Below are positions 13,633-48,883 of a DNA stretch of 64,000 bases, one piece after another (position 1 is the stretch's first letter; every line of letters starts with the position of its first letter). The notes below the pieces were generated by a model. That model worked only from the letters and a program-made list of their open reading frames with translations, was not told the origin of the DNA and searched no databases. The translations under genes were made by a program, and so were the position numbers. This DNA comes from Wenyingzhuangia marina (GTDB lineage: Bacteria > Bacteroidota > Bacteroidia > Flavobacteriales > Flavobacteriaceae). The stretch spans positions 372,001 through 436,000 of the forward strand of contig NZ_FQXQ01000003.1 in the NCBI RefSeq assembly GCF_900130035.1, written 5' to 3'.

Positions 13633-13729
13633 AATGATAATAAGATATTGACATCGATTTTATGATATGCTAAAGGTACAAAATAGTGATTGATAAGTAA
13701 TTTTACAAGAGTGTGCATAGATAAAAAAA

Positions 13730-13753
13730 CACCTTTTACTTTAGTAAAAGGTG
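13730..13753 (-). terminator. Terminator after the FKBP gene
   Basis: Ten-base stem CACCTTTTAC / GTAAAAGGTG with a 4-base loop. In the minus transcript it is followed by seven U. Sits 28 bases after the FKBP stop. Confidence 0.88.
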
Positions 13754-13781
13754 CTTTTAATATTTTAATAATGTTAAAGAA

Positions 13782-14301: not shown

Positions 14302-16818
<2,517 letters not shown>

Positions 16819-16897
16819 AGTTTTTGTCTGGTTTACTTTTAGACTTGAAATAAGCTAAAATGTTTAATACGTACTTAGTAAAAAGGAATATTGTGAT

Positions 16898-19384
16898 TTA
16901 CTCCACATTAAACGTTTTAATGGCGTGTATTGGTTGTCCATTAGCTGAAATTCCTTCCACTTCTATAATATAATCACTTTTTAAATCACTGGTGAAAAAT
17001 GTAATCTCAGAACTTTTATCACTAGTTGTTTTAATTATTGGCTCCCAATGTAAAGTAGTTCTAACATCATTGTTATTCATTTCTTCAAAACCATTTATAT
17101 GGTCTGGAGCATAAAATTTTCTTGCAGTGTAAAAACCTACAGCATTAAAATTGATAACACCTGGCTCTCTTTTTATGGCTTTACTTCTTTCATTTCCAGA
17201 TAGGGAAAAAAGTGCAATAGCACCACCTCCTGAAGTTCCCAGTAAGTTTACATCAGCTCCAACAAGAACATCAACAAAAGAAATTTCAAAAGCGTTGATT
17301 GATTTAATGAAATCAGAATCTACTTCCATTCTATCTAAAAATATTTTAGCTGGTGCTTGAGTTCTCGTTAAGTATAATTTTCCATTGGAAACATAAACTC
17401 CTGATAATCTTGATGCCAATTGATATGCAGTTAAGGAAGATATTCCTTTTAAATCACCTACATCAACACGTTTACTCCCTCCTAAACCAACACCACCGTA
17501 GCCTGACTTCCTGTTCATTTCTGCTCTTCTTCTAGATTCTTCCGTTTTTCTTTTAGCTGTTAGTTCAACAGCTTTTAGTTTTTCAACTTTTTGGTTGTAC
17601 TCAAATTTTATTTGCTCTATGTATTGGGTAACTTTAAGAAAGTTAGCTTCTTTTTTTAGGTCATTACTATTATTAATACTATGTGTGTTGTGGTTTATTT
17701 CTGGACTAGCTTCGGGTTGATCAACAAGAATAACAACATTTCTTTCCTTATAATCATCACTAACAAAATTATGTACTCTAGCTTCAATTAAAACAGGTAT
17801 AGTATCCATAAACCCATAAGGACCAAATGTAAAACGACCTAATGAGTCAGATATTTTTGTAGGCTCTTGAGAGAAAATTTTTCCTAAAAAAGTTAATCTT
17901 ACTGGGCCTTTATTTTCTGTGTATGGCTTTTTTAATTTTTTAACAACTCCAGAAATAGAAATACTGTTTTCAGGTTCAAATTTTTGTTTCTTATCTTTAT
18001 TTGATAATAATTCCTGCCAAGTAAAACGTTTCCATCCATGAGTCATCATTACTAAATCTAAAATGTATCTTCTTTTAGGATCGTTTTCCTTTTCAAAAAA
18101 ATAACCAGGATCTTCTATTTTTCCTCTCAAGTCTGAAGTTAAAAGTAAATAGGTTTTAATATTGGGAGTACGTGTGTTATATGGAAAAGCTTTTAAATCT
18201 CTAACACTCATAGATAAAGTGCTAGGTTCTTTAGTACCACTTGTATTAGTTACATCTAGGTTTAAAGTTACTTTTTTACGTGAATTATAAGTTTGTTGAT
18301 TTGTATTGATTGTTGCTTTAAGATTATTTTTTGAATTATCTACAAATACTGATCTTTCTGCTACAGGATTTCCTTCATTATTAAATAAAGTAAAATTAAC
18401 TACTCCATCAGCTAAAGAAGTTGTAGGTATTTTTAAAGAACTAGATTTTTTATTTGTTTCTTGATAGTTCTTAAACAGAAGAGTTCCTCTTTCATGCGCA
18501 ACTAAATAAGTATTTTGTAAACCGTTATCTAAGGTGCTTTTGGCATTTATAATAATCGAGCTTCCTGCATTGGTTACATTAAGAGTGTATCCTTTGTCTA
18601 ATGCATTAGGTAAAGGATATTTTTCTTCTTTCCCGTTAATAAGCATGCTTAAATAATAAGTGTTATTAGGTTTAGGGTTAATCATAAAATTACCAAGACC
18701 AAATTCTAGAGTTTTAATTTCTGTAATTTCTTCCCCATTTTGATTTTTTAAAAAACCTTTAAGACTGATATTTTTATATTTATCATTTTTTACTTTAAAA
18801 GCAACTCTATTGGGTAAGTTATTTATTAAATATCCACCTTCAGGATAGAATGATACTATAGGTTTTAAGTTTAAAGTAGCGTCTGAGTTAATTTCATTTT
18901 CAATTTCTAAAATACTATCTTTTTGAGTAATACTATCTTTTTGGATAGTGTAAATAGGAATTTCTTTTTTAAAAAAACTTCCATACTTATCATTCTTCAT
19001 ATAATTGGTGTAGCCTCGTAAAATATAATTTCCAGCTTCCCAGTTATTATCTATTTTTATATCTCCAGCGACACTGATATCGTTAACATATAAAGTTCGT
19101 TGGGCTACAATACTATCTTTTGGGTTGATGAGTTCTACATGTAAAACTCTACTTTTATCAGTTCGTTGATGTGTAATTCCATTTACTAGATACCCTGTAA
19201 ACCATATATCTTCATCTAAAGTATAAATAGGTTTGTCTGTCTGAATGTATATTTTTTCGGGATAATGATTGTTACTGTAGTCTTCTAACTTTTCTTGTAG
19301 TATTTTTTGAAAATCAATTTGATTGTAGATTGTAAAGGATAGGATGCATAATGAAGTGCAAATTAGTAATAATGATTTTTTCAT
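16898..19384 (-). CDS. Large MG2-like/plug-like envelope protein, paralogue 2
   Basis: 828 residues, with the same order of parts as paralogue 1: signal peptide MKKSLLLICTSLCILSFTIY, KIYIQTDKPIYTLDEDIWF, SFYPEGGYLINNLPNRVAFK, VAERSVFVDNS, RRYILDLVMMTHGWKRFTW, a plug-like segment (SLTAYQLASRLSGVYVSNG, KIFLDRMEVDSDF), and the shared end GQPIHAIKTFNVE. The two are separated by 79 bases and are obvious tandem duplicates. In Bacteroidota such proteins are annotated as TonB-receptor-plug-domain or MG2-domain proteins, presumed outer-membrane or periplasmic. No ligand can be assigned. Confidence 0.8.
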   Translation of the reverse strand: MKKSLLLICTSLCILSFTIYNQIDFQKILQEKLEDYSNNHYPEKIYIQTDKPIYTLDEDIWFTGYLVNGITHQRTDKSRVLHVELINPKDSIVAQRTLYVNDISVAGDIKIDNNWEAGNYILRGYTNYMKNDKYGSFFKKEIPIYTIQKDSITQKDSILEIENEINSDATLNLKPIVSFYPEGGYLINNLPNRVAFKVKNDKYKNISLKGFLKNQNGEEITEIKTLEFGLGNFMINPKPNNTYYLSMLINGKEEKYPLPNALDKGYTLNVTNAGSSIIINAKSTLDNGLQNTYLVAHERGTLLFKNYQETNKKSSSLKIPTTSLADGVVNFTLFNNEGNPVAERSVFVDNSKNNLKATINTNQQTYNSRKKVTLNLDVTNTSGTKEPSTLSMSVRDLKAFPYNTRTPNIKTYLLLTSDLRGKIEDPGYFFEKENDPKRRYILDLVMMTHGWKRFTWQELLSNKDKKQKFEPENSISISGVVKKLKKPYTENKGPVRLTFLGKIFSQEPTKISDSLGRFTFGPYGFMDTIPVLIEARVHNFVSDDYKERNVVILVDQPEASPEINHNTHSINNSNDLKKEANFLKVTQYIEQIKFEYNQKVEKLKAVELTAKRKTEESRRRAEMNRKSGYGGVGLGGSKRVDVGDLKGISSLTAYQLASRLSGVYVSNGKLYLTRTQAPAKIFLDRMEVDSDFIKSINAFEISFVDVLVGADVNLLGTSGGGAIALFSLSGNERSKAIKREPGVINFNAVGFYTARKFYAPDHINGFEEMNNNDVRTTLHWEPIIKTTSDKSSEITFFTSDLKSDYIIEVEGISANGQPIHAIKTFNVE

Positions 19385-19506
19385 AATTTTTCTGTATAGC
19401 TTTTTTTAGGCCTAAAATAAAAATAAATGTTTTATTTACACTTATGTAAATGACTTTATTTTAGCTTTTTATTAAATGTTTAAAAATATGTATTGGTTAT
19501 CAAAAA

Positions 19507-22197
19507 TTAATTTACAGTATAGGTAAATTCTTGATAACCAATTTCACCTTTGTCATTAATGGCTTCAATAACAATAATCATTTCACCAGGTTTATCTGCA
19601 TTGTAAAAAGAAGATGATACTTCTCCTAATTCATTTGTGTTTAATACGGGTTGCCAATGTATTAGACTTCTTAAGTCTGGCTTTTGCCAATCATTTTCAT
19701 TTATAGAATCATATTTAGGGGAGTAAAATTTAATGGGTTCTGAAAAAACAGAAATAGTGTTTTTAGTGACTCCTTTAGGTTTGACAGCTCCATAGATTCC
19801 TTTTTTAGCATGGGTGTAAATAGCAATAACATTTCCCCATGGTGGGGGATAAGGTGATTTGGTTAAATCATAGTATAGGAGGTTAAAGCCATTTGCATAT
19901 TCAATAATTTCAAAACTACTTACTTCACTTGGGGGGATGTTTGGAATAAGGTGGTAGTCATGAATAGCAACAGGAATTCCATCAATAACAACAAGTGTTG
20001 GCATATTATTTACTGTAGCATGCAAGTATTGATCAGGATGTCGTTGTATTCTAACTTTATCAGGAAAGTTGAATAATAAAACACTATACAGACCATAAGA
20101 CCATTCTTTTTCTTTAGCTAAAATTTCTTTTCCATCAATTACAGTATTAGGTTTACCATATCTATCTGCAACTTTTTTTCTATTAGGTGTCATTTTATAA
20201 GCTGTAATATCAACTTCTTCTAAAAGAACACTTCCGTATTGCATTTCAAATTTCTTTTGTGTTTCTTTTTTTTCTATACTTTTTTCTACAAATACTTCTA
20301 TAATACTATCTATTGATTTGATAGGTTTTTCGTGTAAGAAGGAAATAAGAGGTGTCTCTTTTATATCTAATTCAAGAGGATAATTTTTATTCTTTAACTT
20401 TTTTGAGGTTTGAAGAAGTATTTCCATATCATCACCATATTCATCATTTAAATGAAACTTAAATTGACCTAAACTGTCAGTTAATTGTTTGTAAAGAGAT
20501 TTTTCTTTCCCAGACGTCATCATTGTTACTTCAATATCTTTTATTCCTTTTTTTGATGAAAAAATATGATTTACTTTTCCTGACAACGTTAGTGATGGCT
20601 CTGGTTGTATTTTAACACTTTTATATGGTTTAGAATAGTTGTATTTACTCCATCCTTGAGTTAACATAAGAGCTTCCAAGTGATAGTGCATACTTTTGTT
20701 TTCACTAAAATAAAACCCTGGATTTTCTATATGTCCCTTTAATTCAGAATCGAGTAAGAAATAGGAAAGTATATTTTGACGGATGCTTTGTATAGTTCCT
20801 AATTCTTTTTTATTAATGACAAGTACGGATAGATTTGTTTTTACAGGTTCTTCTTTTGCATTGGTGGTTTGTATTTTTAAATTGGTTAATTCTCGTTTGT
20901 GATACTTTTTTTGATTTTTAGTTAAATTAATTTTTATTCGTTTATCATGTTTTTCATTAAAAAAAAGTCTTCTAGCAACGGGTTGATCTAAATGATCGGA
21001 CATGGTAAATGAAATAATTCCTTCTGGGAGTCCATTGTGTGGAATTAGTAATTTGGCTTTGCCTTTATTCAGTTTAACTCTTTTTTTATAGAGATTTATT
21101 CCTCTAAAAGAAAAACTAATAAAAATACTATCATTTAGTATATAATTAGAAGAGGCGTTTATGAATATATTTTTTCCTATTCTATTTATGGCTAAATTAT
21201 TCCCTAAAGAAGCAACTTTAGGGAGTGGATATAATAATTTTTCATTTTGTAAATGATGGTGTTTTAATCTAGCGAAATAATTTTGAGTACTATCTGTTTT
21301 ACGAATTATAAAACTCCCCATACCAAGTTCGTTACTTGTAAAAGAAGTAATTATAGAATCTTTATCGTTAAGAATAAAACCTTCAGTAAATTTGCCTTTT
21401 CCATTGGCATCAGTTGCTTTAAATCCAATTTTGCTATCTAAGCTATGTACCATTTCTCCACTTTCAGGAAAAAATTGTAGATCTATATAGTTTTTATCGA
21501 GTGCAAAGGTTTTGATGTATTTTTTATTGTTTTTTGTTAGTATTTTAAAAGTTGCAAATTGATTTTTGTCTGTTATATTGTAATTTAAATGGTATTTGTT
21601 ACTGCTATCTTTTTTAATAAATAAAGTATCTGTTTTATCATCTACATTAATGTATACAGTGAGCTTTTTTTTGTGTAAAGTATCTATAACTGTAGGGTTA
21701 AAAGTTACTTGTAAATAATTTTTTTTAGACTGTTCTTTGATTAATTTAATGTTGCTAATTGGCTCTTCTTGATAATCATTAGTAAATACCTGAATATATT
21801 CTTTAAATAGAAAATCCTTTTCAAAATTTTCATTCCATTTTGTGTAAGCTCTAATAAGATATGTACCTCCTTTTATGTTTTTATCTAAATCAAAATAGTT
21901 ATGACCAATTCCGTTTTTTATTTTAACTAATTTTTGTTGCCGAATCATCTCATTGGGTCCAATTAATTCAACATATAATACACCACTTAAATGAGAAGGG
22001 ATGTGGTCAAATGCATTGGATAGAATACACTTAAACCAAATAGTATCTTCGTTGGTATATGTTTTTCTGTCTAATTGAAGATATATTTTTTCAGCCAACG
22101 CTGCATTAGATAGAATTGTATCATTATTCTGTGACCATGAATTAAAATGAATAAAAAATGCTAAAAAGAAAAAAATGACATTCTTAATTTTAGGCAT
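19507..22197 (-). CDS. Large MG2-like/plug-like envelope protein, divergent paralogue 3
   Basis: About 896 residues from the ATG at 22197, which gives a clean signal peptide (KIKNVIFFFLAFFIHFNSWSQ). In-frame ATGs at 22242 and 22254 are alternatives. It shares the layout of the two downstream genes (KIYLQLDRKTYTNEDTIWF, LQFFPESGEMVHSLDSKIGF, EALMLTQGWSKYNY, a late plug-like part with MPTLVVIDGIPVAIHDY) but is much more diverged and lacks their common C-terminal end. The 122-base gap to paralogue 2 leaves room for separate promoters. Role unknown. Confidence 0.75.
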   Translation of the reverse strand: MPKIKNVIFFFLAFFIHFNSWSQNNDTILSNAALAEKIYLQLDRKTYTNEDTIWFKCILSNAFDHIPSHLSGVLYVELIGPNEMIRQQKLVKIKNGIGHNYFDLDKNIKGGTYLIRAYTKWNENFEKDFLFKEYIQVFTNDYQEEPISNIKLIKEQSKKNYLQVTFNPTVIDTLHKKKLTVYINVDDKTDTLFIKKDSSNKYHLNYNITDKNQFATFKILTKNNKKYIKTFALDKNYIDLQFFPESGEMVHSLDSKIGFKATDANGKGKFTEGFILNDKDSIITSFTSNELGMGSFIIRKTDSTQNYFARLKHHHLQNEKLLYPLPKVASLGNNLAINRIGKNIFINASSNYILNDSIFISFSFRGINLYKKRVKLNKGKAKLLIPHNGLPEGIISFTMSDHLDQPVARRLFFNEKHDKRIKINLTKNQKKYHKRELTNLKIQTTNAKEEPVKTNLSVLVINKKELGTIQSIRQNILSYFLLDSELKGHIENPGFYFSENKSMHYHLEALMLTQGWSKYNYSKPYKSVKIQPEPSLTLSGKVNHIFSSKKGIKDIEVTMMTSGKEKSLYKQLTDSLGQFKFHLNDEYGDDMEILLQTSKKLKNKNYPLELDIKETPLISFLHEKPIKSIDSIIEVFVEKSIEKKETQKKFEMQYGSVLLEEVDITAYKMTPNRKKVADRYGKPNTVIDGKEILAKEKEWSYGLYSVLLFNFPDKVRIQRHPDQYLHATVNNMPTLVVIDGIPVAIHDYHLIPNIPPSEVSSFEIIEYANGFNLLYYDLTKSPYPPPWGNVIAIYTHAKKGIYGAVKPKGVTKNTISVFSEPIKFYSPKYDSINENDWQKPDLRSLIHWQPVLNTNELGEVSSSFYNADKPGEMIIVIEAINDKGEIGYQEFTYTVN

Positions 22198-22307
22198 AGA
22201 AACCGAATAAAAAGAATGAGAAATAAGTAGTTTTTTTTTCATAGAGCTGAGCAATTTTCTTTCTTTTATGACTAAAATAAGTTAAAAAAATTAGAAAATT
22301 CTCAAAA

Positions 22308-39444: not shown

Positions 39445-39709
39445 TATAGGTTGTTTAATTGTATAGCAATTATTGAATGGTATTGATAAAAATAGGTCTT
39501 TAATAATAAATGATATAACCTATAATTATTAGATATAAAAATACCAAAAACTTTAATGAATTCTAGAATTTATTATCTATTTAAAAATAACGGTTGGTAT
39601 ATGAAAAATTAGACGGTTACCAAGTTTTTTTCTACTACTAAAATTAAGAGCATTTACATAGCGATAATTCCTATTGCCAATATAAAATATGATGTTTTGT
39701 TTTTTTAAC

Positions 39710-40498
39710 TTATTTTGTTAGGTAATTTGTGGGTGTTTTTCCAAAATGTTTTTTAAAAGTAGTAATGAATGAACTAACATTTTCATAACCTAAATCAAAG
39801 GCAATTTGTTTTACACTTTTATTTTCTCCTAGCTGCTTTACTGCTTCCATTAATTTTAAACGCATTTTCCAATCTCCAAAGCTCATGCCTAATTCCTTGT
39901 TAAATAATCTAGAAAGTGTTCTCGGACTCACAGATGATTTATTGGCGTAATAATCAATGTTTTTTTTGCTTGAGAAATTATGCATTAAATCATCTACTAC
40001 TATTTTTACTCTTTTTTCTTGGCTTGTTGGTAAAAAGGTTGTGCTTGCTTTTAAGATAGAAATTTCATCTAAGAATACCTCAATTACTCTACTTTGTGGT
40101 ATAGTTAATTTGTTGGGATTACCAAAAGAGACTATTTTTTTTAGAAGACTGTTTAAAAAACTTGAATTGTCAAATGCAAAGCTATCTTTTGGAAGATTAT
40201 TTAATTTTGATTTGTCAATAAATGCTGTAATTACCCTTACATTCTTTGGGAAAAAAACTTGGTGTTCCTCGTTACTGGCAATCCAAACACTTTGTAAAGG
40301 ATTAATTATCCATATATTGCTTTTTGTTACAACTTTCATTACACCTGAATTACATGATATAATTTGTGCTCTTGGATGCGCGTGTGAATTTGCACATTTG
40401 GCATTTTGAATATTTTCAGAATAGGTGCTTACTGGACGGAATTCGTTTATTTCGTATCCTGAATCTATTTTAATATTTGTCTTGTAATCAATATTCAT
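39710..40498 (-). CDS. AraC-family transcriptional regulator (cupin N-domain)
   Basis: 262 residues. N-terminal cupin half (SHAHPRAQIISCNSGVMKVV at about 40-60, PLQSVWIASNEEHQVFF), C-terminal AraC HTH pair (INYYANKSSVSPRTLSR-like stretch, then VKQIAFDLGYENVSSFITTF KKHFG). It is divergent from the methyltransferase gene across 68 bases and may control it. The domain order is that of the one-component regulators whose cupin pocket binds a small ligand. Confidence 0.87.
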   Translation of the reverse strand: MNIDYKTNIKIDSGYEINEFRPVSTYSENIQNAKCANSHAHPRAQIISCNSGVMKVVTKSNIWIINPLQSVWIASNEEHQVFFPKNVRVITAFIDKSKLNNLPKDSFAFDNSSFLNSLLKKIVSFGNPNKLTIPQSRVIEVFLDEISILKASTTFLPTSQEKRVKIVVDDLMHNFSSKKNIDYYANKSSVSPRTLSRLFNKELGMSFGDWKMRLKLMEAVKQLGENKSVKQIAFDLGYENVSSFITTFKKHFGKTPTNYLTK

Positions 40499-40566
40499 TG
40501 TCTAAATATAGTAATAAAGACATTGTTTCTATTCCTGAACTTTGTAAAAATTTAAAATAATAGATT

Positions 40567-41322
40567 ATGGATGTTAAAAATCATAACAAAAACATTGTAA
40601 AACAATTTTCAAAGCAGGCTAGTGGATACACTGCAATTACTTCGCATAGTGAGGCTTTAGATAAGTTAATTTCCTTATCATCAGCTTCAAAGAGTGATTC
40701 AGTTTTAGATATTGCTTGTGGCTCTGGTATTGTATCATGTGAATTTGCCAAACATACCCATGATGTAACAGGGATTGATATAACACAAGGAATGCTTGAT
40801 GAGGCACAAAAGTTGCAAACTAAGTGCGATCTTACTAATATGACTTGGCAAATTGGAGATGTTGACAATTTACCTTATGAAGATGATAGCTTTTCAATTG
40901 TAATTTCAAGATTTGGTTTTCATCATTTCTTAAACCCATTTAAAGTTTTGTCTGAAATGAAAAGAGTTTGTAAACCAGGAGGAAAGGTTTTAGTGGTTGA
41001 TGTTTCTTTACCAGATTCTAAAATTAAAAAATATAATGAAATGGAAAAAAACAGGGATGATTCTCATGTTGCAGCACTTTCATTAACTGAATTTTCTAAT
41101 TTATTTAAAAAGGTCGGTTTTAAAAGTTTAAATACAGATTTTTATTCAATGCAGATTTCATTAAAAGAACAGCTTAAAGCATCTTTTCCAAGAGACAAAA
41201 ATACTTTAAAAAACATGATTATTACTGATGTGGGAGTAAATGATTTAGGAATAAATGTGTTAAAATTAAATGAAGAATATTTTTTGCAGTATCCAATTCA
41301 TATTTTTTCATTAAAAAAATAA
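40567..41322 (+). CDS. Class I SAM-dependent methyltransferase
   Basis: 251 residues. UbiE/BioC-like Rossmann methyltransferase. SAM-binding motif I VLDIACGSGIVSCEFA (about 47-62), acidic residue after strand 2 in VTGIDITQGMLDEAQ, motif with DVDNLPYEDDSFSIVISRF (about 98-116), and KPGGKVLVVDVSLP after motif III. The substrate cannot be read from the sequence. Divergent from an AraC regulator, ends in a strong terminator. Confidence 0.88.
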   Translation: MDVKNHNKNIVKQFSKQASGYTAITSHSEALDKLISLSSASKSDSVLDIACGSGIVSCEFAKHTHDVTGIDITQGMLDEAQKLQTKCDLTNMTWQIGDVDNLPYEDDSFSIVISRFGFHHFLNPFKVLSEMKRVCKPGGKVLVVDVSLPDSKIKKYNEMEKNRDDSHVAALSLTEFSNLFKKVGFKSLNTDFYSMQISLKEQLKASFPRDKNTLKNMIITDVGVNDLGINVLKLNEEYFLQYPIHIFSLKK

Positions 41323-41349
41323 AAAAGCCCTCTTCATCGGGGGCTTTTT
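41322..41349 (+). terminator. Terminator after the methyltransferase gene
   Basis: Stem AAAAAGCCCTC / GGGGGCTTTTT with loop TTCATC, followed by T. It overlaps the last base of the stop codon. Confidence 0.88.
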
Positions 41350-41521
41350 ATGTATGGAATGTAATGGTTAGTATATTAAAAATAGGGGGATTTTATCCAT
41401 ATATAATTTTCAGAATTAGAGTATTTTGTACAGGATTTTCTACGAAGAGGTTTTTAATTAATTCAGTATATTTTTAGATCCCATATTTCATATTTATTAT
41501 TAAATGTTTTTTTTCAAAAAT

Positions 41522-41776
41522 TCAGTGATTATATAAATATATTTCATAGCCTAATAATTCACATTCAATTCCTTTACTTTTTAGTTGTTGAGCTATTGAA
41601 TTTATATCAATTACTTTAACTTCAATTCTTAAAATAGAGTGACCGTAAGGGTATGGTTTATTAAAATCTTCCAAGTCAAAATTGAATTCTACCTGTGGAT
41701 AATTCTTTTCCAAAAATTGTAAAATTTCTATTGATAGAATTTCTGATTTTACATTGGTTATAAACACTTCTACCAT
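41522..41776 (-). CDS. Small protein, ferredoxin-like (HMA-fold-like) pattern, no CxxC
   Basis: 84 residues. Predicted order beta (VEVFITNV), alpha (ILSIEILQFLEKNY), beta (VEFNFDLED), beta (SILRIEVKVID), alpha (INSIAQQLKSKGIE), beta (CELLGYEIY). This resembles a heavy-metal-associated domain but lacks the metal-binding CxxC of that family. Its ATG follows the flavoprotein stop by one base (TAATATG), so it is translationally coupled to it. I do not recognise a named family. Confidence 0.65.
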   Translation of the reverse strand: MVEVFITNVKSEILSIEILQFLEKNYPQVEFNFDLEDFNKPYPYGHSILRIEVKVIDINSIAQQLKSKGIECELLGYEIYLYNH

Positions 41777-41777
41777 A

Positions 41778-42680
41778 TTAAAAATTTTCTTGAGTGAGTT
41801 CTTGATTTATCATTGTACCCGTTATGTTTCCACTGTTAACAGCCATTGATACAGAACGCATCATTGTACTATTGTCTCCACAGGCAAATATGCCTTCTTC
41901 TGTGGTTTTTTGCATAAAATTTACTTCAATGTATCCCTCTTCCGTAAATTCACAACCCAATTCTTTGGGAATATTAGAGTTTTGTTCAAACGGAACAGGA
42001 GCATATGCACATTCAAAATTTTCCTTACTTCCATCTTTAAATACAATACTTTTTAATTGCCCATTAGTATGATTGATTGAAGAAACTTCTTTTTCGATGA
42101 TTTGAATATTATGTTGTTTTAATTTTTCGAGCTGTTTTTCTTCAAACGCTTCTATTTTTGAAGTGATAATTGTTATTTCTTTTGTTAAATTGTTTACTAA
42201 AGATGCAAGATGAAGCACTCTTTCTCCATTATAAATTATAGTGGTTTTTTTATTTCGTATTTCGTAACCATGGCAATAAGGACAGTGTACTACGGAAATT
42301 CCCCAACATTCCATAAAACCACTTATATCTGGTATTATGTCTTTAATTCCAGTGGCAAAAACCAATTTTTTTGCTGTAAAAACATCTCCATTTGAGGTAG
42401 TGATTTGAAAACCTTTTTTAATTTTCTTTCCACCTACAGCAAATCCGTTATAAAATTTTACACTGTCATATTTTGCTACTTGATTCTTTGCAATTTCAGA
42501 AATTTCTTTTGGTGTACTTCCATCTTGAGTTAAAAAATTATGTGAATGTGGCGTTTGTCGATTACACGGTTTTCCAGCATCAATTACCAATGTTTTGCGA
42601 AGGGAACGACCTAAAGTCATTGCTGCTGAAAGTCCTGCATAACTTCCACCAATTATAATTACTTCAAAGACCTTGTTCAT
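41778..42680 (-). CDS. Thioredoxin-reductase-like NAD(P)/FAD oxidoreductase
   Basis: 300 residues. FAD-binding IIIGGSYAGLSAAMTLGRS at residues 9-27, redox-active-type CPYC in VVHCPYCHGYE (about 132-142), a second nucleotide-binding half, and the FAD C-terminal motif FACGDNSTMM with VNSGNITGTM after it. This is the TrxB-like group of stand-alone flavoproteins; whether it reduces thioredoxin or another disulfide partner is open. Divergent from a Fur-family gene with two palindromes in between, so it is probably regulated by that protein. First gene of a two-gene operon with the small protein downstream. Confidence 0.87.
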   Translation of the reverse strand: MNKVFEVIIIGGSYAGLSAAMTLGRSLRKTLVIDAGKPCNRQTPHSHNFLTQDGSTPKEISEIAKNQVAKYDSVKFYNGFAVGGKKIKKGFQITTSNGDVFTAKKLVFATGIKDIIPDISGFMECWGISVVHCPYCHGYEIRNKKTTIIYNGERVLHLASLVNNLTKEITIITSKIEAFEEKQLEKLKQHNIQIIEKEVSSINHTNGQLKSIVFKDGSKENFECAYAPVPFEQNSNIPKELGCEFTEEGYIEVNFMQKTTEEGIFACGDNSTMMRSVSMAVNSGNITGTMINQELTQENF

Positions 42681-42699
42681 ATTATTGATTTATGTTTTA

Positions 42700-42718
42700 A
42701 ATGCGAAAATGTCGCATT
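42700..42718. promoter_or_regulatory. Operator-like palindrome 1 (19 bp)
   Basis: AATGCGA-AAATG-TCGCATT, a perfect 7-base inverted repeat with a 5-base centre. It lies just downstream of the likely transcription start of the flavoprotein gene, a position suited to repression. 13 of 19 bases match palindrome 2. Confidence 0.6.
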
Positions 42719-42729
42719 AGTTTTTTAGA

Positions 42730-42759
42730 CAAAAATACATTTTTTTTGTATTATTGCAA
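42730..42759 (-). promoter_or_regulatory. Promoter of the flavoprotein operon
   Basis: Minus-strand TATTTTTG at 42737-42730 matches TAnnTTTG. A TTG at 42759-42757 is separated from it by exactly 19 bases, the standard Bacteroidota -33/-7 distance. The -33 TTG lies inside operator-like palindrome 2. Confidence 0.6.
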
Positions 42760-42771
42760 TAAAATCGCAAT
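42753..42771. promoter_or_regulatory. Operator-like palindrome 2 (19 bp)
   Basis: ATTGC-A-AT-AAA-AT-C-GCAAT, and one more T/A pair outside. It overlaps the -33 TTG of the flavoprotein promoter and ends 4 bases before the start codon of the Fur-family gene, so binding here could control both genes. Confidence 0.6.
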
Positions 42772-42775
42772 AAAC

Positions 42776-43153
42776 ATGATTAGAAGGAATACGCCCACAA
42801 AAGAGGCAGTACTGAATTTACTACTAAATTCAAGAAAAGCATTAAGTCATGACGCTATTGAAAAGCAGTTAAATATTGAAATCAATAGAGCTACAATTTA
42901 TAGAGTATTAAACAGATTTTGTGAAGATGGGATAGTACACAAAATAGTTGCTGAAGACGGAAAACAGTATTTTGCTATTTGTAAAAAATGTGAAAATCCA
43001 CAAGAAGTTATTCAACATCATTTCCATTTTCGGTGTTTGTCGTGTGATACGATTGAATGTTTGCAAGTTCCTGTTGAATATTCAGTTCCCAATGGTTATG
43101 AAGTTCAAAATACAAATTGTGTTCTGACCGGGGTTTGTAATGACTGTTCGTAG
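42776..43153 (+). CDS. Fur-family transcriptional regulator
   Basis: 125 residues from the ATG at 42776. An earlier in-frame ATG at 42701 lies inside palindrome 1 and would add a non-family extension, so 42776 is preferred. Winged helix at about 8-70 (TPTKEAVLNLLLNSRKALS, RATIYRVLNRFCEDGIVHK). The metal part has CKKC, HHFHFRCLSCDTIECLQVP and the C-terminal CNDC, i.e. paired CxxC motifs. Paralogue of the Fur-like gene at 11.5 kb. Divergent from the flavoprotein operon. The cofactor and sensed signal are unknown (zinc, iron or peroxide are all family options). Confidence 0.85.
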   Translation: MIRRNTPTKEAVLNLLLNSRKALSHDAIEKQLNIEINRATIYRVLNRFCEDGIVHKIVAEDGKQYFAICKKCENPQEVIQHHFHFRCLSCDTIECLQVPVEYSVPNGYEVQNTNCVLTGVCNDCS

Positions 43154-43197
43154 GTTTGTTTACATTGCCCACAGGTTCCCAATAACCCAACCATATT

Positions 43198-43284
43198 AAA
43201 GAGCGATCAAAATAATTGATAACTCTTTAATATAGTTGTCTCTTGTATGTTTGTTATTTAAATACCTTCTGCAAGGTGTTTTAA
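43198..43284. repeat. Direct repeat copy A (fnr 3'-end copy), left edge of island
   Basis: 87 bp that align to 48113-48196 with three mismatches and one 3-base gap. On the minus strand it reads the last codons of the crp/fnr gene (LKHLAEGI, stop) and its terminator stem, although no such gene lies upstream here. The homology ends abruptly on both sides. Confidence 0.85.
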
Positions 43285-43310
43285 GTTTCTGTTTTTTTTA
43301 TTTAAAACAG

Positions 43311-44756
43311 CTATTTATTAATAAATTGGGTATAGTGAGCATAGCGTTCAAAAATCTGATTGACGTAATTATAGGGCTCAATTCCTCTAACATAACCGTA
43401 CTTTATGATAGGATTGTTGTAGTTTTTGGGATGGCTCAAAGCCAAGATCATATTTTCAACATTGTCATCCCAAACAAAGGCATCCAAACCTTTTTTGGTA
43501 GCTAACTTTTGAGCATCTTTAACATGATACAATCCACAATTATAAGAGGCCATCGTAAATTTAGTTCGCTGTATAGAGTCTTTAATTTTGTCGAAATTAT
43601 TCCAAATCTGTCTAAGATATTTGATTCCCCCACTAATACTTTGTTTTGGGTTACTGCGATCTTGGACTCCCAGTTCTTCGGCAGTTTTAGGCATCAATTG
43701 CATCAGACCTTTCGCATTGGCCCAAGAACTATTGTTTGGATCAAATCTTGATTCTTGATAAATTAGGGAAGCTACTAAACGCCAATCCCAATTAATTTTT
43801 TCGGCATGTTTTTGAATAAGTGCATCGTAAGGGCTAATTTCCTCTTTGTTTAAACTATAGAAGTCACTTTTTACACGTCGTCTAAAGTTCTTTTTATTTT
43901 TAAAGTACTTATTATAAATAACATTATAATCAACCTCTTTTCTGAAATCTTCTAGCCATAAATTTATAGCATTTAGTAATTTGGGTGAGTTTATACGTGT
44001 GGCCCATCCAATTCTTTGTGAAAAACTAACAGGTACCTCAATGTCTAAAATAGGATAATAAGAAGCCATAATTTTGGCGATATTATTATCTGAAATCGTG
44101 TATTTAATATTCCCTTTGGCTACTTGTTTAATGATTTCATCTGTAGCCATTTCACCTGATAATTTATTAATATAAATGTTACCACCAAGCTCATCGCTAA
44201 GATTCTCAATACGCTCGCTGTAAGATGAACCTTCACGAATGGATACTGTGTCTTGTAGTAATTCTATGGCATCCTGTATCAACGCATTTTCCAATTTGTG
44301 CCAATGCATGGTACGCCAATTGTCTGGTTTTTTTTGAACTAATACCTGTTTGGTTAGGTACAAATAGTTTGTAAATGATACAGATGCTTTACGGTCTCCT
44401 GTAATCGCGAGTCCGTGTGCCAAAATATCACCTTCACCTTGATTGAGTTTGATAATAAGTTCATCAAGATCTTTAACCACAACCATTTCAAGTTCAAGAT
44501 TTAGATGTTTGGCTAATCTTTTAAGTAATTCATACTCGTAGCCCATGGGTTGTCCCTTGTATAAAAAATAGCTTGTTCCGCTATAGACTGTAAGCGCTTT
44601 AAGTATGCCATCTTTTTTAATGGACTCTAAATCACGTTTCAAAATAGGCTGTTTGTTAATTGCATCCTTTTTTTTTGGTTGCTCACAATTAATTAAAAAC
44701 AGACATAATATTAATGCCAAATAGTGCTTTTTAAACAAGGAAGATTGCAGCTGCAT
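43311..44756 (-). CDS. MltF-like lytic transglycosylase lipoprotein
   Basis: 481 residues. N-terminal signal MQLQSSLFKKHYLALILCLFLINC with lipobox Cys. An SBP_bac_3-type domain (about 50-290: LTVYSGTSYFLYKGQPMGYEYELLKRLAKH) precedes a C-terminal SLT/lysozyme-like domain (WRLVASLIYQESRFDPNNSS with the catalytic Glu, GLMQLMPKTAEELGV, YLRQIWNNFD, MASYNCGLYHVKDA). This is the MltF arrangement, cleaving peptidoglycan glycan strands to 1,6-anhydro ends. It lies 27 bases from repeat copy A, at the edge of the island. Confidence 0.9.
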   Translation of the reverse strand: MQLQSSLFKKHYLALILCLFLINCEQPKKKDAINKQPILKRDLESIKKDGILKALTVYSGTSYFLYKGQPMGYEYELLKRLAKHLNLELEMVVVKDLDELIIKLNQGEGDILAHGLAITGDRKASVSFTNYLYLTKQVLVQKKPDNWRTMHWHKLENALIQDAIELLQDTVSIREGSSYSERIENLSDELGGNIYINKLSGEMATDEIIKQVAKGNIKYTISDNNIAKIMASYYPILDIEVPVSFSQRIGWATRINSPKLLNAINLWLEDFRKEVDYNVIYNKYFKNKKNFRRRVKSDFYSLNKEEISPYDALIQKHAEKINWDWRLVASLIYQESRFDPNNSSWANAKGLMQLMPKTAEELGVQDRSNPKQSISGGIKYLRQIWNNFDKIKDSIQRTKFTMASYNCGLYHVKDAQKLATKKGLDAFVWDDNVENMILALSHPKNYNNPIIKYGYVRGIEPYNYVNQIFERYAHYTQFINK

Positions 44757-44933
44757 ACGGAATGTATCTTTAAGGTTTCCTTGTAAAATACAAAAAATAT
44801 ATCGGACAGAATTTAACTCTTACTTAGCTTAAAGAAATATTAGGTTACTCAAAATTATCATTCAAACAAATATCAAATGAATTTATTATCAGTGTTTTAG
44901 ATTTTATATATCGTTATTAGGTATGTAAGAAAA

Positions 44934-45455
44934 CTATTCTAATGCTTTCCATTCTTCTTTGGTAGCTTCAGATTTTTGATTTTCCATTAACGCATACCAC
45001 TTGTCATTACGTTTTACAAGCAGCATTTCAAAATGTATATAATCTTCAGTAGGGTTACCGTGGCTATCTGTTGAGGTAAAATAGAAAATTCCTGTTTCAA
45101 ACGCAGTAGTTTTACTCCCAATTCTTTTTGATAAACGAAATTCTACCTTATCATTTTTCTTTCCCAACTTGGTGTCAATAAACCCTTGTTTCCAGTTGTC
45201 TAGCGCTTCTGTAATTGATATTGACTTATTTTGTTTAATAACAAGAACAGCATCAGGATGGTAAGCAGCTTGGTAACCCTCAAAATCACCTTCTCGAACG
45301 GTGCGAGATAGTTCTGTCCAGAATTTATCAAGTTCTGACAATCTTGCAGAATCTTTTTGAATTTCTTGGTAAATATTGTTGTTAAAAGAATTTGCTTTGG
45401 TTGTTCCAATACTTACAATGATGATGATTGCGGTAAGAAAAAGATTTTTTTTCAT
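44934..45455 (-). CDS. Exported NTF2/SnoaL-like (DUF4440-type) protein
   Basis: 173 residues from the ATG at 45455, which gives the signal peptide KKNLFLTAIIIIVSIGTTKANS. The mature part is an NTF2-like cone fold: FWTELSRTVREGDFEGYQAAY HPDAVLVI, GFIDTKLGKK, ETGIFYFTSTD, FEMLLVKRNDKWYALMENQ. Such proteins bind small ligands or are enzymes; residues for a specific role are not evident. It starts 4 bases after the stop of the tail-tube gene (stop at 45460), so both are in one transcript. It has no link to the cbb3 genes. Confidence 0.8.
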   Translation of the reverse strand: MKKNLFLTAIIIIVSIGTTKANSFNNNIYQEIQKDSARLSELDKFWTELSRTVREGDFEGYQAAYHPDAVLVIKQNKSISITEALDNWKQGFIDTKLGKKNDKVEFRLSKRIGSKTTAFETGIFYFTSTDSHGNPTEDYIHFEMLLVKRNDKWYALMENQKSEATKEEWKALE

Positions 45456-45459
45456 GTTG

Positions 45460-45921
45460 TTATCCATTTGTAATTATTAATTCTTCATGTGCTATTTCTA
45501 AGATATCTACAGCCACCTCATTCTCATCAGACTCAAGATTGGTACTTGTTATTTTTGTTGGCCAGGCATTGTTTAATTGCCATTGTATGGTTACCTCATT
45601 GTTCTCATTTAGCAATTGAATAATAATTGTTCGGCGTTCGATGGTATTCATGGCTATTTGTGAATGAAAATCCCAAAAAGCATTGTTGTTTAAAAACACG
45701 CCTCTTTTCATCACAACATTTCCGTTTTTTACTATTCCTGGTGTTTTAATGGTAGAAAAAAGCTTGCTGTTACTTTTTCGATATTCAATTATTTGACTTT
45801 CAACGTCCATTCCTGATACTTCTTGAAAGGAAATTTTTTTAAGTTCAATACCAAGGTCTACTTTAAACCTAAACTTAGGCATAGGCCAATTTGATCCTTC
45901 TTTACTTCCGTCGTCTGCCAT
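45460..45921 (-). CDS. Phage-tail gp19/contractile injection tube protein (orphan)
   Basis: 153 residues. Matches the T4 gp19-like tail-tube family used in contractile injection systems: PMPKFRFKVDLG near the start, FQEVSGMDVESQIIEYRKS, FSTIKTPGIVKNGNVVMKRG, and the end LNNAWPTKITSTNLESDENE followed by VDILEIAHEEL. Tube proteins polymerise into the inner tube of a contractile tail. No sheath, baseplate, spike or AAA+ gene is present in the window, so it stands alone. First gene of a two-gene unit with the exported NTF2-like protein. Confidence 0.85.
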   Translation of the reverse strand: MADDGSKEGSNWPMPKFRFKVDLGIELKKISFQEVSGMDVESQIIEYRKSNSKLFSTIKTPGIVKNGNVVMKRGVFLNNNAFWDFHSQIAMNTIERRTIIIQLLNENNEVTIQWQLNNAWPTKITSTNLESDENEVAVDILEIAHEELIITNG

Positions 45922-46141
45922 AATATTTTTTTAGTGTTATTTGTTGTCTATGGTTAGTATATGGCAAGTAGAATAGTAGAAAGCGAAAAACTTTCGGATT
46001 TGCACTGAGCCAAAGCGTTGTATTTTGTTTTTATCTTATTCATTTTAAAAGCCAAATCAACGATTTGGTGGAGTTTGTAAATAGCACTAATTTTATTAAA
46101 TCACTTAACGCCCTATTTGATATATACCGTGTTAGCAGAGG
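45922..46141. other. Gene-free gap between tail-tube gene and CBASS-like effector
   Basis: 220 bases with no supported gene. It contains a 7-base inverted repeat CCAAATC-AAC-GATTTGG (46052-46068) that has no U run, so it is not a typical terminator. No promoter element was recognised with confidence. Confidence 0.5.
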
Positions 46142-46918
46142 TTATTTTAGGGTGTACTGTTCTTTCAATTTCTCCCATTGCTCTGATAAGTATGGGTTGA
46201 ATTTTTTATACAGTGATTCACTAATCAATAAGTTAAATGTCGAAAGTGTTGTTTCGTAATTTAAAACTGTCAGGATAATTTCAGGCTCTTTTTTAGAAGT
46301 AATCTCTTCTTCTTTCAAATCATTATAAAGTCGGCAAAAGCTGTCGAGAATATTTTTTACTCTTAGACAAAAAACGGAATGGTTAACAGCATCTGAAATT
46401 AGGTAAATTGGCAAAGTCAGTTGTAGAACCATAGTTAACACAGTATTATAACCTTGAACAGCAAGAGTTAAAATTATTACTGCAACAATTAGATTTATTA
46501 TCCATTTCTCCTTTAGACACTTAATTGCCAAATTATAGGTGAAATAACAACTCTCAAAACTGTTAGCTCCCATTCTTAAAATACCATTTTCAATAGTATC
46601 ATTATTATAATATTTGTTTGATTTATTTGAAGAATAGTTTGTGCCAAATGAATTATCTACAAAGTCTGAGCGTTTGTCAAACGAAGTATGGAAAATTATG
46701 TAATTAACTACAAACTTTAGAAGAGTAAATAAAACAATTACAACAGTGTTTACATTGCTTAGAATTTCCGCCCACTCTTTGAGGTTATCAATATATTTAC
46801 TAAATATAAAATTGAGTAGAGTTAAGCCTGCTGACAAAATCAGAATTTTGAATGCTATAGAATCAATTTTCTTTGCAAGATTAAATGATTCTCTTAATGG
46901 GTTGTAGTATTCATTCAT
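46142..46918 (-). CDS. Multi-TM effector of CBASS-like module (S-4TM-like)
   Basis: About 258 residues from the ATG at 46918 (a start at 46939 inside the upstream gene is possible). Four hydrophobic segments: IAFKILILSAGLTLLNFIF, NVNTVVIVLFTLLKFVVNYI, WIINLIVAVIILTLAVQ and VLTMVLQLTLPIYLISDAV. After TM2 comes a soluble stretch with DNSFGTNY, and a soluble tail follows TM4. This arrangement is close to S-4TM effectors (SMODS-associated 4TM), which are thought to damage the membrane once a cyclic nucleotide binds. Overlaps the CD-NTase gene by 8 bases (ATGAATGA). Assigned mainly by architecture and partner. Confidence 0.68.
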   Translation of the reverse strand: MNEYYNPLRESFNLAKKIDSIAFKILILSAGLTLLNFIFSKYIDNLKEWAEILSNVNTVVIVLFTLLKFVVNYIIFHTSFDKRSDFVDNSFGTNYSSNKSNKYYNNDTIENGILRMGANSFESCYFTYNLAIKCLKEKWIINLIVAVIILTLAVQGYNTVLTMVLQLTLPIYLISDAVNHSVFCLRVKNILDSFCRLYNDLKEEEITSKKEPEIILTVLNYETTLSTFNLLISESLYKKFNPYLSEQWEKLKEQYTLK

Positions 46919-47903
46919 AGGAAGGATATTTATCTCCAAAAATTATTTGCCAATTTTCAATAGCCTTTTCTTGATTCTTTTTTTCAATTTCAAAATCAAG
47001 AGCAATATTAGCAGTGTCATAACAAGACTTGGCTTTGCTTGAAATTCTATCCTTTTGTTCGCTAGTGAGATTGTTTATATTGCCTTGTATTCCTTTTGGG
47101 TCTTGAACATCATAACGAATGTTAGAATACAAATAGTAAAAAAAGTTTTTGATATTAATGTCATTAAAATCATTCTGACTCCCCGTTGATTTAACGAAGT
47201 TCAAAACAAGGACTTCAAATAAGTATGAGCCAATTTTAGGACTTGTAAAATTTGCATTCCAATATTTTAAAGTCCTTACTAGTTGATATACTTTCCCGCC
47301 GTAATTCTGATTTGTATTTTTAATATTGTCTTGGTCTGTGGTTGGATTTGAAGCCTTCCAATTTCCACTTCCGTCTGGAATAAGATAAAAGTTATTTACT
47401 GTGTAGAAGCAAGGTACAATGTCATAACTCCAAGTATATGAAACCAAATTGAGTACAGTCGCTTCTTGATTTCTTTTGATGTCTGCGTTTGAATATTGAG
47501 GAACGGTTTCTAACGCTTTTACTAACTTATTAACTACTTTTATTGAATTAAGAGTATAATCGTCATTTGAAAGTTTCTTTAAGCTGTCAATTGCGTTCTC
47601 TGTATGAATGTAATATTTTTTATTGTCATAAGTGTCAATTTGATAATAAGCATTTCCTGCTCCAATACAGTACATAAGGTCAATGTCGTCAAGGGGTTTT
47701 ATTTTGGTGTTTCTAGCGAATGAACCAAATTTTATATGCTTTTCGGGGTAGTCATTTGGGAAGTCTTCAACATTTTCAGGAAAAGCCAATAATTGTGTAA
47801 TTAACCAATCTCGACTGCTTCTTGCATTGTCAGTGTTATCCTTGATAAGGTTTACCACATCTTTATTAAATTCTTCGAATGCTTGATTTACACTTTTTGC
47901 CAT
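46911..47903 (-). CDS. CD-NTase (cGAS/DncV-like nucleotidyltransferase), CBASS-type
   Basis: 330 residues, usual length for a bacterial CD-NTase. Helical start, then the nucleotidyltransferase motif FGSFARNTKIKPLDDIDLM (Gly60-Ser61, metal aspartates Asp73 and Asp75), and a third carboxylate Asp161 in SYDIVPCFY. The C-terminal helical half includes YQLVRTLKYWNA. Such enzymes make cyclic oligonucleotide alarms upon phage infection. The overlapping downstream membrane protein is the expected effector. No Cap2/Cap3 or HORMA/TRIP13 genes are seen, so a type I two-gene CBASS is most likely. Confidence 0.85.
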   Translation of the reverse strand: MAKSVNQAFEEFNKDVVNLIKDNTDNARSSRDWLITQLLAFPENVEDFPNDYPEKHIKFGSFARNTKIKPLDDIDLMYCIGAGNAYYQIDTYDNKKYYIHTENAIDSLKKLSNDDYTLNSIKVVNKLVKALETVPQYSNADIKRNQEATVLNLVSYTWSYDIVPCFYTVNNFYLIPDGSGNWKASNPTTDQDNIKNTNQNYGGKVYQLVRTLKYWNANFTSPKIGSYLFEVLVLNFVKSTGSQNDFNDINIKNFFYYLYSNIRYDVQDPKGIQGNINNLTSEQKDRISSKAKSCYDTANIALDFEIEKKNQEKAIENWQIIFGDKYPSYE

Positions 47904-48112
47904 ATTGTTCTTATGTGTGTTAGTTTTTCAAAAATCTCTGCCAACCCCAAATAACCAAACTTTCTTTAGGAATTGGCTTTTTCGAGAAGTCAATCTTTTT
48001 TATAAAGTTAGCTATAAAAATCAGTGAGTTACAGAAATACTTTTGCACAAAACTTAAAAGTTCTTAACAAATAACAATATTTATAGTATTTTTATAAAGT
48101 CACTAAATAAAA

Positions 48113-48196
48113 AAAGAGCTATCAAAATAATTGATAACTCTTAAATATAGTTGTCTCTATGTTTATTATTTAAATACCTTCTGCAAGGTGTTTTAA
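48113..48196. repeat. Direct repeat copy B (native fnr 3' end), right edge of island
   Basis: 84 bp, aligned with 43198-43284 (three mismatches, one 3-base gap). It comprises the last codons of crp/fnr, the stop, and the terminator stem. This copy is in its natural place. Confidence 0.85.
48114..48142 (-). terminator. Terminator of crp/fnr
   Basis: Stem AAGAGCTATCAA / TTGATAACTCTT with loop AATAA. One pair is a G-U wobble only in the minus-strand RNA, and seven U follow in that direction. The corresponding stem in copy A (43199-43227) lacks the U run. Confidence 0.8.
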
Positions 48197-48883
48197 TTCC
48201 TCTTCATCTAGAATTACAATGGCTTTTCCATCTAAATCTATCAAACCATCTTTTTTAAATCCAGATAATATTCTAATAGCCGATTCTGTTGCCGTTCCCA
48301 CAGAACTTGCAATCTCTTTTCTACTTAGCTGAATATTAATAGTGTTGTTATTGTCTACACCATAAGTTTCCTTTAAAAACAAAATCAAATCAGCCATACG
48401 TTGGTGTACCGTATTGGTAGAAATATTGGTTATTGCGTTGTTAGCTTCTTTTAAATCGCTACAAACGGTTTTAAACATGGCCCCAGCAAACTTTGGGTTT
48501 TCTTCTAAAGGTTTCTTAATTAAGTCTTGCGGAATGTAACAAGCAGCTACATCATTTAAAGCGGTAACCTTAATGGTACTAGGTTCATGAGTAATGGCAG
48601 AGTGGTAGCCAATTAAATCTCCTTTTTTACTAAATTTTACAATTTGTTCTTTTCCATTTGCATTTAATTGAGAGAGTTTACAAACCCCATCTTTAATACA
48701 GTATACACCAGAAGAAAATTTACCTTCATCAAAAATAACTTCTCCTTTTTTAAAGATATGTACATCTTTAGAGTCAGAAATTCGTGATAATTCTTCCTTA
48801 CTTAAAGCATTTAAGTTGTTAAATTGTTTAATTAAACATTGTTCACATCTACCCACAGTAAAAGATTTTTTTGTTCTTTTCAA
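48170..48883 (-). CDS. Crp/Fnr-family transcriptional regulator
   Basis: 237 residues. N-terminal CEQC in RCEQCLIKQF, then a cNMP-type beta-roll (GEVIFDEGKFSSGVYCIKDG, KFSKKGDLIGYHSAITHEP) and a long dimer helix. C-terminal winged helix (QLSRKEIASSVGTATESAIR, SGFKKDGLIDLDGKAIVIL). Divergent from the cbb3 oxidase cluster and likely its regulator, as Fnr-type factors are in other bacteria. Only the two N-terminal cysteines are obvious, so an oxygen-sensing [4Fe-4S] cluster of the E. coli type is not proven. Its 3' end is the direct-repeat sequence that bounds the island. Confidence 0.9.
   Translation of the reverse strand: MKRTKKSFTVGRCEQCLIKQFNNLNALSKEELSRISDSKDVHIFKKGEVIFDEGKFSSGVYCIKDGVCKLSQLNANGKEQIVKFSKKGDLIGYHSAITHEPSTIKVTALNDVAACYIPQDLIKKPLEENPKFAGAMFKTVCSDLKEANNAITNISTNTVHQRMADLILFLKETYGVDNNNTINIQLSRKEIASSVGTATESAIRILSGFKKDGLIDLDGKAIVILDEEELKHLAEGI

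Follow-up and report, generated by a model that had tools for sequence, protein, structure and literature searches.

The segment behind the crp/fnr-family gene of Wenyingzhuangia marina is, in our judgement, likely to be a mosaic that arose at a recombination hotspot, in which a gene cassette carrying a cyclic oligonucleotide-based anti-phage signaling system (CBASS), a landing pad, a separate block of genes and a duplicated fnr end lie next to each other. The DNA analysed, called the window throughout, is a stretch of 64,000 nucleotides (contig NZ_FQXQ01000003.1, positions 372,001 to 436,000), and an earlier note on it had described one island between positions 43198 and 48196, of the kind left by an element that inserts at the 3' end of a gene and restores that end. 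The mosaic replaces this single island, and its best understood part is a CBASS cassette of integron type on a chromosomal landing pad (Table 1). The window genome (G000, 3.24 Mb) was compared with six other genomes of the genus, including W. aestuarii (G001), W. gilva (G003, the closest relative examined), W. heitensis (G004) and W. sp. 2_MG-2023 (G005); since G006 is 85% complete and has no fnr match, five congeners were usable at fnr. The fnr locus of W. gilva is referred to as L011 and the array locus of G000 as L071.

As read from its sequence, the CBASS pair looks like a unit of its own, laid out in the manner of an integron gene cassette. The CD-NTase gene adjoins the effector gene, the arrangement by which a CBASS is recognised, and the CD-NTase sequence contains a GS...DDID stretch, which we take to be the active site. 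At its 5' border the window reads G|TTGGCAGAG, where the bar marks the exchange point. The start and end boxes of the cassette, GTTGGCAGAG and CTCTGCTAAC, are reverse-complementary at 9 of 10 positions and at 5 of the 6 variable positions, and CTCTGCTAAC lies directly behind the effector gene. The attC-like site of the cassette is the sole match in the window to a covariance model of attC sites (R1), which leaves out the window genus and draws on eight others, with 36 of the 43 eligible sites used. The 3' end of the cassette resembles the array repeats described below in its DNA sequence and folds, with RNA parameters, into a hairpin of -45 kcal/mol on the plus strand, computed, like all folds reported here, without a shuffle control.

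At the same place W. gilva carries a 0.7-kb acetyltransferase cassette and no CBASS cassette. The acetyltransferase cassette starts G|TTGGCTGTA and ends TACAGCCAAC, and these boxes are complementary at 10 of 10 positions, including 6 of 6 variable ones; its 3' end folds into a long hairpin, and model R1 gave one match on L011, at the acetyltransferase (58.2 bits, E=9.9e-10), with nothing further in either the window or L011 at E<=1. Compared with W. gilva, the CBASS site of the window lacks its last bases, including the GTT of the R' box, so that the cassette is probably frozen and predicted to be locked in place; for the same reason, its 3' border was placed by comparison with W. gilva. Insertion of a cassette at G|TT outside an array was thus seen at the W. 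gilva fnr locus and at other sites, and in the window at the 5' border only.

Both cassettes stand behind a pad that separates them from the fnr terminator. In W. gilva this pad is ~160 bp long and ends GGTTGGGTTATTCGGAA|GTT, and the window pad is 79% identical to it over 273 bp, a stretch that takes in the fnr end. The pad motif, allowing up to 3 mismatches, was found at nine places in four species, eight of which (in G001, G002 and G003) run into GTT, the ninth being the left copy in the window; a cassette with matching start and end boxes follows 6 of these 8 pads. The pads have up to ~130 bp in common, with ...GTAGTTTTATAAA... upstream. We considered whether the pad motif might be the integron's own attI and rejected this, as a different sequence stands beside the recombinase.

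A DNA search with the 3' end of the window cassette found related repeats in 7 of 7 genus genomes, mostly clustered, with one match in G006. With model R1, matches at E<=0.1 numbered at least 25 in G000, at least 54 in G001, at least 15 in G002, at least 140 in G003, at least 27 in G004, at least 50 in G005 and at least 5 in G006, all lower bounds with 150 candidates scored in each genome. The G000 array contains 19 attC-like sites of 194-199 bp (C3:221.3-242.5 kb). Automatic placing of the borders runs some sites together (in G000 it puts 3 of 20 adjacent pairs at 6/6), and this array was therefore recounted from its 19 individual sites: at least five of the six variable box positions matched in 14 of 18 adjacent pairs versus 16 of 343 non-adjacent pairs, and three of the four failing adjacent pairs enclose a further model match. 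Across arrays with at least six repeat regions, adjacent boxes beat permuted ones in all 12 tested (10 fetched loci plus G000 and G002; p 0.0002-0.018). Paired R and L boxes, the mark of an attC site, are evident from the alignment, from covariation in the L stem (7 of 9 pairs changed on both sides) and from the model matches in the window and L011, and a start box complementary to the unit's own end box, the mark of a cassette, is found both in the arrays and in the cassettes at the fnr locus.

The cassettes of the G000 array include a ParD/ParE pair, a zeta-like kinase and a Fur-like protein, and an identical 266-residue cassette protein is encoded twice in it (L071:10470-11270 and 13292-14092). 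Outside the array, a cassette-like unit in the same genome (L193, G000:C3:428500-435500) has an attC site at 3462-3598 on the minus strand and start and end boxes matching at 6/6, with a weaker attC-like match 2.3 kb away.

Ahead of the G000 array lies the gene for a tyrosine recombinase of 407 residues (L071:7163-8386). The models that this protein matches best are of XerA type: it scored 212 bits with NF040815 (XerA-type, cut-off 220) and 188 bits, in two stretches, with the integron integrase model TIGR02249 (cut-off 265). In the PDB it matched XerA with 136 bits and IntI4 with 118 bits, again in two stretches, with 23 residues versus 65 in IntI4, a gap that we take to be the place of the integron-specific domain. 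The additional domain specific to IntI is absent from the recombinase, and no stretch over the IntI cut-off was found in the 7 genus genomes or in 14 control genomes, stretches being scored separately. The recombinase gene was present in 122 of 299 sampled family genomes (E<=1e-60). Twenty loci were hand-picked from matches in genomes of few contigs (14 better-scoring and 6 weaker; 19 single-contig, and G211 in four contigs), and at least six repeat regions lie directly downstream of the recombinase in 10 of them, all of different genera, and also in G000 and G002. The motif ATATAACnA|GTT follows the recombinase gene at 7 of these 12 array loci and near variants of it at 2, with neither at 3 (G181, G067 and G046), and the GTT behind the recombinase is the complement of an early end box in 8 of the 12. 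The spacing from the first catalytic Arg to His-x-Leu-Arg is 89-90 at 29 of 30 loci (one unreadable) and in all 20 fetched genes, two sets that overlap by four genomes, and all 20 genes, which were picked by H-x-L-R-H, keep the five catalytic residues examined (Arg, His, Arg, His and Tyr, the Lys not being among them). In W. gilva, four cassettes (L126, G003:C23:45000-62000, positions 32, 1274, 2468 and 7990) stand behind the attI-like sequence TTAGTTTTGATATCACTT|GTT or a close variant, and a fifth directly follows another cassette; these attI-like copies resemble the sequence beside the G002 recombinase.

Movement of the cassettes by this XerA-like recombinase acting in trans is the most likely explanation on sequence grounds, and a recombinase acting in trans, one of the options named in the earlier note, is judged plausible. 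The pad behind the fnr terminator would have accepted single cassettes at G|TT, the CBASS cassette here and the acetyltransferase cassette in W. gilva, and the mobile form of each would be a circle, closed at the attC-like hairpin of that cassette. The XerA-like recombinase beside the chromosomal array (G000:C3:217-243 kb) would act on them from there, as an integron integrase in role, albeit one without the IntI-specific domain. With rather less confidence than for the mosaic itself, but on balance in favor, we propose that Flavobacteriaceae have a second kind of integron. Its Xer-like recombinase, encoded in ~40% of the searched genomes, would recombine folded attC sites despite lacking the IntI domain; in addition to the main array it would use single-cassette pads at scattered chromosomal sites, one of them behind fnr, and would move anti-phage systems such as CBASS.

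The arrays and cassettes could be real and yet owe their recombination to a different enzyme, be it XerC/XerD, an IntI since lost or one brought by a mobile element, with the XerA-like gene a bystander; we consider this unlikely. The XerA-like recombinase lacks the domain that IntI needs for attC recombination according to the available text of PMC9668308, its role on attI x attC is putative, and half of the 20 inspected loci have no clear array. However, the recombinase stands directly before an array in 10 of 20 genomes of different genera as well as in G000 and G002, an attI-like motif, near variants included, lies between recombinase and array in 9 of 12, and the five catalytic residues examined are kept in 20 of 20; moreover, none of the 7 genus genomes has a stretch above the IntI cut-off, the whole G000 protein reaching 188 of 265 bits.

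The second component of the segment, the MltF-DUF4440-gp19 block, has a history of its own. Among the five congeners with this fnr, the block follows fnr in W. gilva only, and sequence comparison places other genes behind fnr in G001, G004, G005 and G002. Presumably these begin with a Dps-like protein in G001, G004 and G005 and with a lipoprotein-like one in G002. The order in W. gilva is fnr, acetyltransferase, gp19, DUF4440, MltF, an AraC-type gene, a BspA-like gene and ArgS; that in the window is fnr, CBASS, gp19, DUF4440, MltF, the copy of the fnr end, Fur, TrxB-like and others, and then AraC, BspA-like and ArgS. The Fur/TrxB-like group is missing from this place in W. gilva, and the AraC, BspA-like and ArgS genes beyond it are common to both. 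The identity of the block to W. gilva is 94-98% in every 300-column step, versus 68-95% for the other shared DNA, bar one short end piece, and 90.7% (647/713) for fnr, indicating that the block moved between the lineages separately, after their split. Near the eight foreign loci of DUF4440 homologues that were examined (of nine; ~1.5 kb on each side), neither gp19 nor MltF was found.

The third component is the repeat pair. As the earlier note had it, an imperfect direct repeat (81 of 84 aligned bases identical plus one gap of 3 columns; as ungapped pieces, 46 nt at 96% and 39 nt at 97%) brackets five genes, now assigned by Pfam, PADLOC and TIGR02241 to an MltF-like lytic transglycosylase, DUF4440, a T4 gp19-like tail-tube protein, a CBASS 4TM effector and a CBASS CD-NTase. 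The right copy is the true end of the crp/fnr gene (L-K-H-L-A-E-G-I-stop) with its terminator-like stem, while no gene precedes the left copy; homologues of the crp/fnr gene are 95% and 87% identical in the two closest congeners and 82-83% in three more. The region is indeed foreign-looking and variable, the block lying behind fnr in one of five congeners (G003, not G001, G002, G004 or G005). Two findings named as fatal to the island did not turn up: the relatives do not all share the five genes, W. gilva having the acetyltransferase in place of CBASS and four congeners lacking the block behind fnr, and the repeat is not dispersed, with good matches at two places only in G000 (the remaining two genome matches being the palindromic left site on the opposite strand and a weak 50-nt AT-rich stretch). 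A dispersed repeat was accordingly excluded, as was a tRNA-type insertion site, the window having no tRNA. The right copy is identical to the W. gilva fnr end at 68 of 84 positions, and the two window copies compare with W. gilva at 68/84 and 68/85; since they agree with each other at 81 of 84, the duplication is younger than the species split, unless gene conversion homogenised the copies.

The left copy of the repeat runs from the fnr end through the terminator and then immediately into the last 17 bases of the pad, here as motif GGTTGGGTTATTGGGAA, which the earlier note had missed, so that the duplication once extended at least to that point, unlike what simple gene-end restoration leaves. 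A decayed end box, CTGTGGGCAA, beyond this motif was too short to claim. At the other end of the left copy, where the block ends, the sequence reads ...GAAACTTAAAACACCTAATACC in W. gilva, where no fnr end is attached, and ...GAAACTTAAAACACCTTGCAGAAGG, the fnr end, in the window. The 11 shared bases are the natural block end of W. gilva, and the join can therefore be explained by short-homology recombination. The left junction fits short-homology or Campbell-type recombination as well as it fits an att core, judging from the sequence. For the duplication of fnr end, terminator and pad in the window lineage, we suggest as the simplest course that a circle with pad and block entered the fnr end through homologous recombination, or else that unequal recombination took place, with the join at TTAAAACACCT, the left copy later losing the pad leader; the block itself was exchanged between the species separately and more recently than the divergence of the backbone. 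W. gilva also has a second copy of the fnr-end core (19/20, L011:11318-11337), ~80 bp past its block end, in frame for L-K-H-L-A-E-G and without a terminator. The short-homology account leaves this copy unexplained and an att core would explain it; there may have been a site-specific event at the core in the common ancestor, followed by rearrangement.

The reading that all 4.9 kb came in at the 3' end of fnr through a tyrosine integrase since lost, with core TTAAAACACCTTGCAGAAGG and with the element bringing the gene end along, is marginally less probable again than recombination by a different enzyme. The repeat does copy the gene end with its terminator, the core is by eye an imperfect inverted repeat, and, of the 397 family genomes sampled (three from the genus), only G000 and G003 contain the exact 19-mer, each of them twice, at the fnr end and past the MltF block. 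On the other hand, a single element bounded by the two repeats is not supported, since the CBASS cassette and the MltF block are separate units with different histories, and the left copy extends into a pad remnant, which is more than restoration of a gene needs. The distal core copy in W. gilva has no terminator and does not lie at the end of the block. None of the five proteins encoded between the repeats is a recombinase and a genome search with an integron/tyrosine recombinase model had no match in the window, bearing out the reported lack of an integrase for tyrosine recombinases, serine integrases not having been searched for. In addition, a strain with its fnr end joined directly to the left flank of the window, an empty site, was not found among the five congeners with this fnr. 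The idea of one element that restored the fnr end is thus only partly supported: the repeat is real and contains the gene end, and its left copy also holds the terminator and a landing-pad remnant. Finally, it is very improbable, and already contradicted, that the hairpin repeats are terminators or repetitive extragenic palindromic elements, with ordinary homologous replacement behind the CBASS/acetyltransferase swap, for although they sit behind genes, fold strongly and recur within genomes, each start box reverse-complements its own end box and varies from unit to unit, which such elements would not give.

Several observations count against the reading that we prefer, a mosaic with a mobile CBASS cassette on a pad. 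No recombination event was observed, the recombination itself being deduced. The attC site of the window scores lowest (29.6 bits) of the cassettes relied on in the window genus, with start and end matching at 5/6, and the CBASS cassette fails a strict box test (0 of 1012 GTT positions on the window minus strand passed), because its R' GTT is lost. Homologues of the CBASS pair in two other genomes were tried as cassettes and rejected, with matching start and end boxes in 0 of 2, one contig ending ~1 kb behind the cyclase; beside one of the two there is a weak attC model match (16.4 bits, E=0.48). The window pad is the most divergent, its best match to pads at other loci being 33 bp (E=0.002) with one G002 pad; searching for the pad motif as a backward pattern, as a control, still yielded 4 matches versus 9; and no matching end box was found behind 2 of the 8 pads or behind one looser G001 pad. 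To these are added the 10 of 20 recombinase loci without a clear array, the second core copy in W. gilva and the lack of an empty site.

The coordinates of the features are collected in Table 1. The left flank is itself strain-specific, which the earlier note had also missed, and the variable stretch, in several pieces, runs from 39591 to ~47931 and is longer than the island first described. DNA like the AraC and methyltransferase genes of the left flank sits together elsewhere in G002 (80%). A cassette origin of this flank (39.6-43.2 kb) was considered on account of attC-like letters seen by eye near 39620 and rejected, there being no model match. Elsewhere in the window, at 14302-22254, three large adjacent genes (838, 828 and 915 residues) have by eye the look of tandem paralogues.

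Table 1. Features of the segment behind crp/fnr and its surroundings (positions in the window)
Feature	Position	Strand	Basis or remark
Strain-specific left flank	39591..43172	.	Fur-like gene, and genes that we take to be AraC, methyltransferase and TrxB-like; no matching DNA at the corresponding place in W. gilva
Landing-pad motif after left terminator	43173..43192	-	GGTTGGGTTATTGGGAA, 3 mismatches, then CCT not GTT; leader missing, no cassette recognised
Left repeat copy	43198..43284	-	fnr end and terminator copied, without gene
11-nt junction	43274..43284	-	TTAAAACACCT, common to fnr end and W. gilva block end
Block common to W. gilva	43274..45951	-	96.0% identical (2556/2662)
MltF-like lytic transglycosylase	43311..44756	-	PF01464, PF00497; PRK10859 318 bits, below cut-off 354
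DUF4440 / NTF2-like protein	44934..45467	-	PF14534 just above cut-off
Orphan T4 gp19-like tail-tube protein	45460..45921	-	PF06841 E=1e-36; TIGR02241 above cut-off
attC-like site of CBASS cassette, right-hand GTT gone	45943..46141	-	Covariance model R1, 29.6 bits, E=8.6e-4 in 217 kb
Integron-type gene cassette with CBASS pair	45952..47944	-	Begins TTGGCAGAG after G
CBASS 4TM effector	46142..46939	-	PADLOC PDLC00726 E=5e-107
CD-NTase (CBASS oligonucleotide cyclase)	46911..47903	-	PADLOC PDLC00802 E=4e-129; PF18144
Landing pad between fnr terminator and cassette	47945..48112	-	Leader and motif ending at G|TT; motif GTTTGGTTATTTGGG
Right repeat copy	48113..48196	-	Last fnr codons, stop, terminator-like stem
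crp/fnr-family gene	48170..48883	-	PF00027, PF13545; 3' end is right repeat copy

The system resembles the sedentary chromosomal integrons of IntI type in having a recombinase gene, next to it at most array loci a candidate attI-like site, and a long array of one- or two-gene cassettes, in its attC hairpins (R''-L''...L'-R') with the exchange point G|TT, and in its cargo of toxin-antitoxin and defence genes. It differs from them in its XerA-like recombinase, which has an N-terminal extension of ~100 residues and no IntI-specific domain, in its boxes of ~10 bases and sites of mostly 136-142 or 190-205 bp, and in its occurrence in Flavobacteriaceae. In comparison with Type I CBASS (CD-NTase plus 4TM effector), both proteins match the PADLOC models nearly full length, whereas here the predicted system sits in a cassette that has a recombination site to itself. 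Like genomic islands at gene 3' ends, the segment has a direct repeat that is the end of the gene, but there is no integrase (the serine type was not searched for), no empty site among the five congeners with this fnr, and a mosaic of differing ages. An attG site needs only minimal sequence, whereas the targets here have a common ~130-bp pad that recurs in the genus. Single cassettes outside an array, inserted at G|TT, are common to both, cassette insertion at attG being known (Loot et al. 2024, as cited by others). As far as the accessible part of PMC12901181 describes them, Delta-attI type cassettes likewise have attI pieces away from the integrase and beside cassettes; there, the attI piece replaces the attC behind a gene, whereas here pads precede cassettes at other chromosomal sites.

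The available portions of PMC8618304 and PMC9668308 list Bacteroidota among the phyla with integrons, and PMC2426708, in the portion available, found intI genes in the Bacteroidetes/Chlorobi group. For Bacteroidetes proper, the accessible text on IntegronFinder 2.0 (PMC9024848) reports earlier In0 elements and, in Salinibacter, a single complete integron. It is the additional domain by which integrases are recognised, as the parts of PMC2426708 and PMC9668308 at hand state; surveys that select integrases in this way would therefore miss a system without it. The insertion is described in the available text of PMC8138268 as not fully conserved in an integron-like subgroup and yet essential for function. 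Among titles and abstracts on integrons in Flavobacteriaceae or Bacteroidota and on attG or defence cassettes, we found none describing such a system, which is weak evidence of novelty, with preprints and most subscription journals outside the coverage. Chromosomal integrons of Vibrio store anti-phage systems (Darracq et al. 2025, as cited in the accessible text of PMC12409362).

Should the XerA-like recombinase prove to act on folded attC sites, the connection that textbooks draw from the IntI-specific domain to attC recombination would have to be revised, and a large bacterial family would gain an unrecognised platform for gene capture, with a defence system among its cargo. The pads, in turn, would account for the presence of a lone defence cassette behind an ordinary gene where no mobile element is close by.

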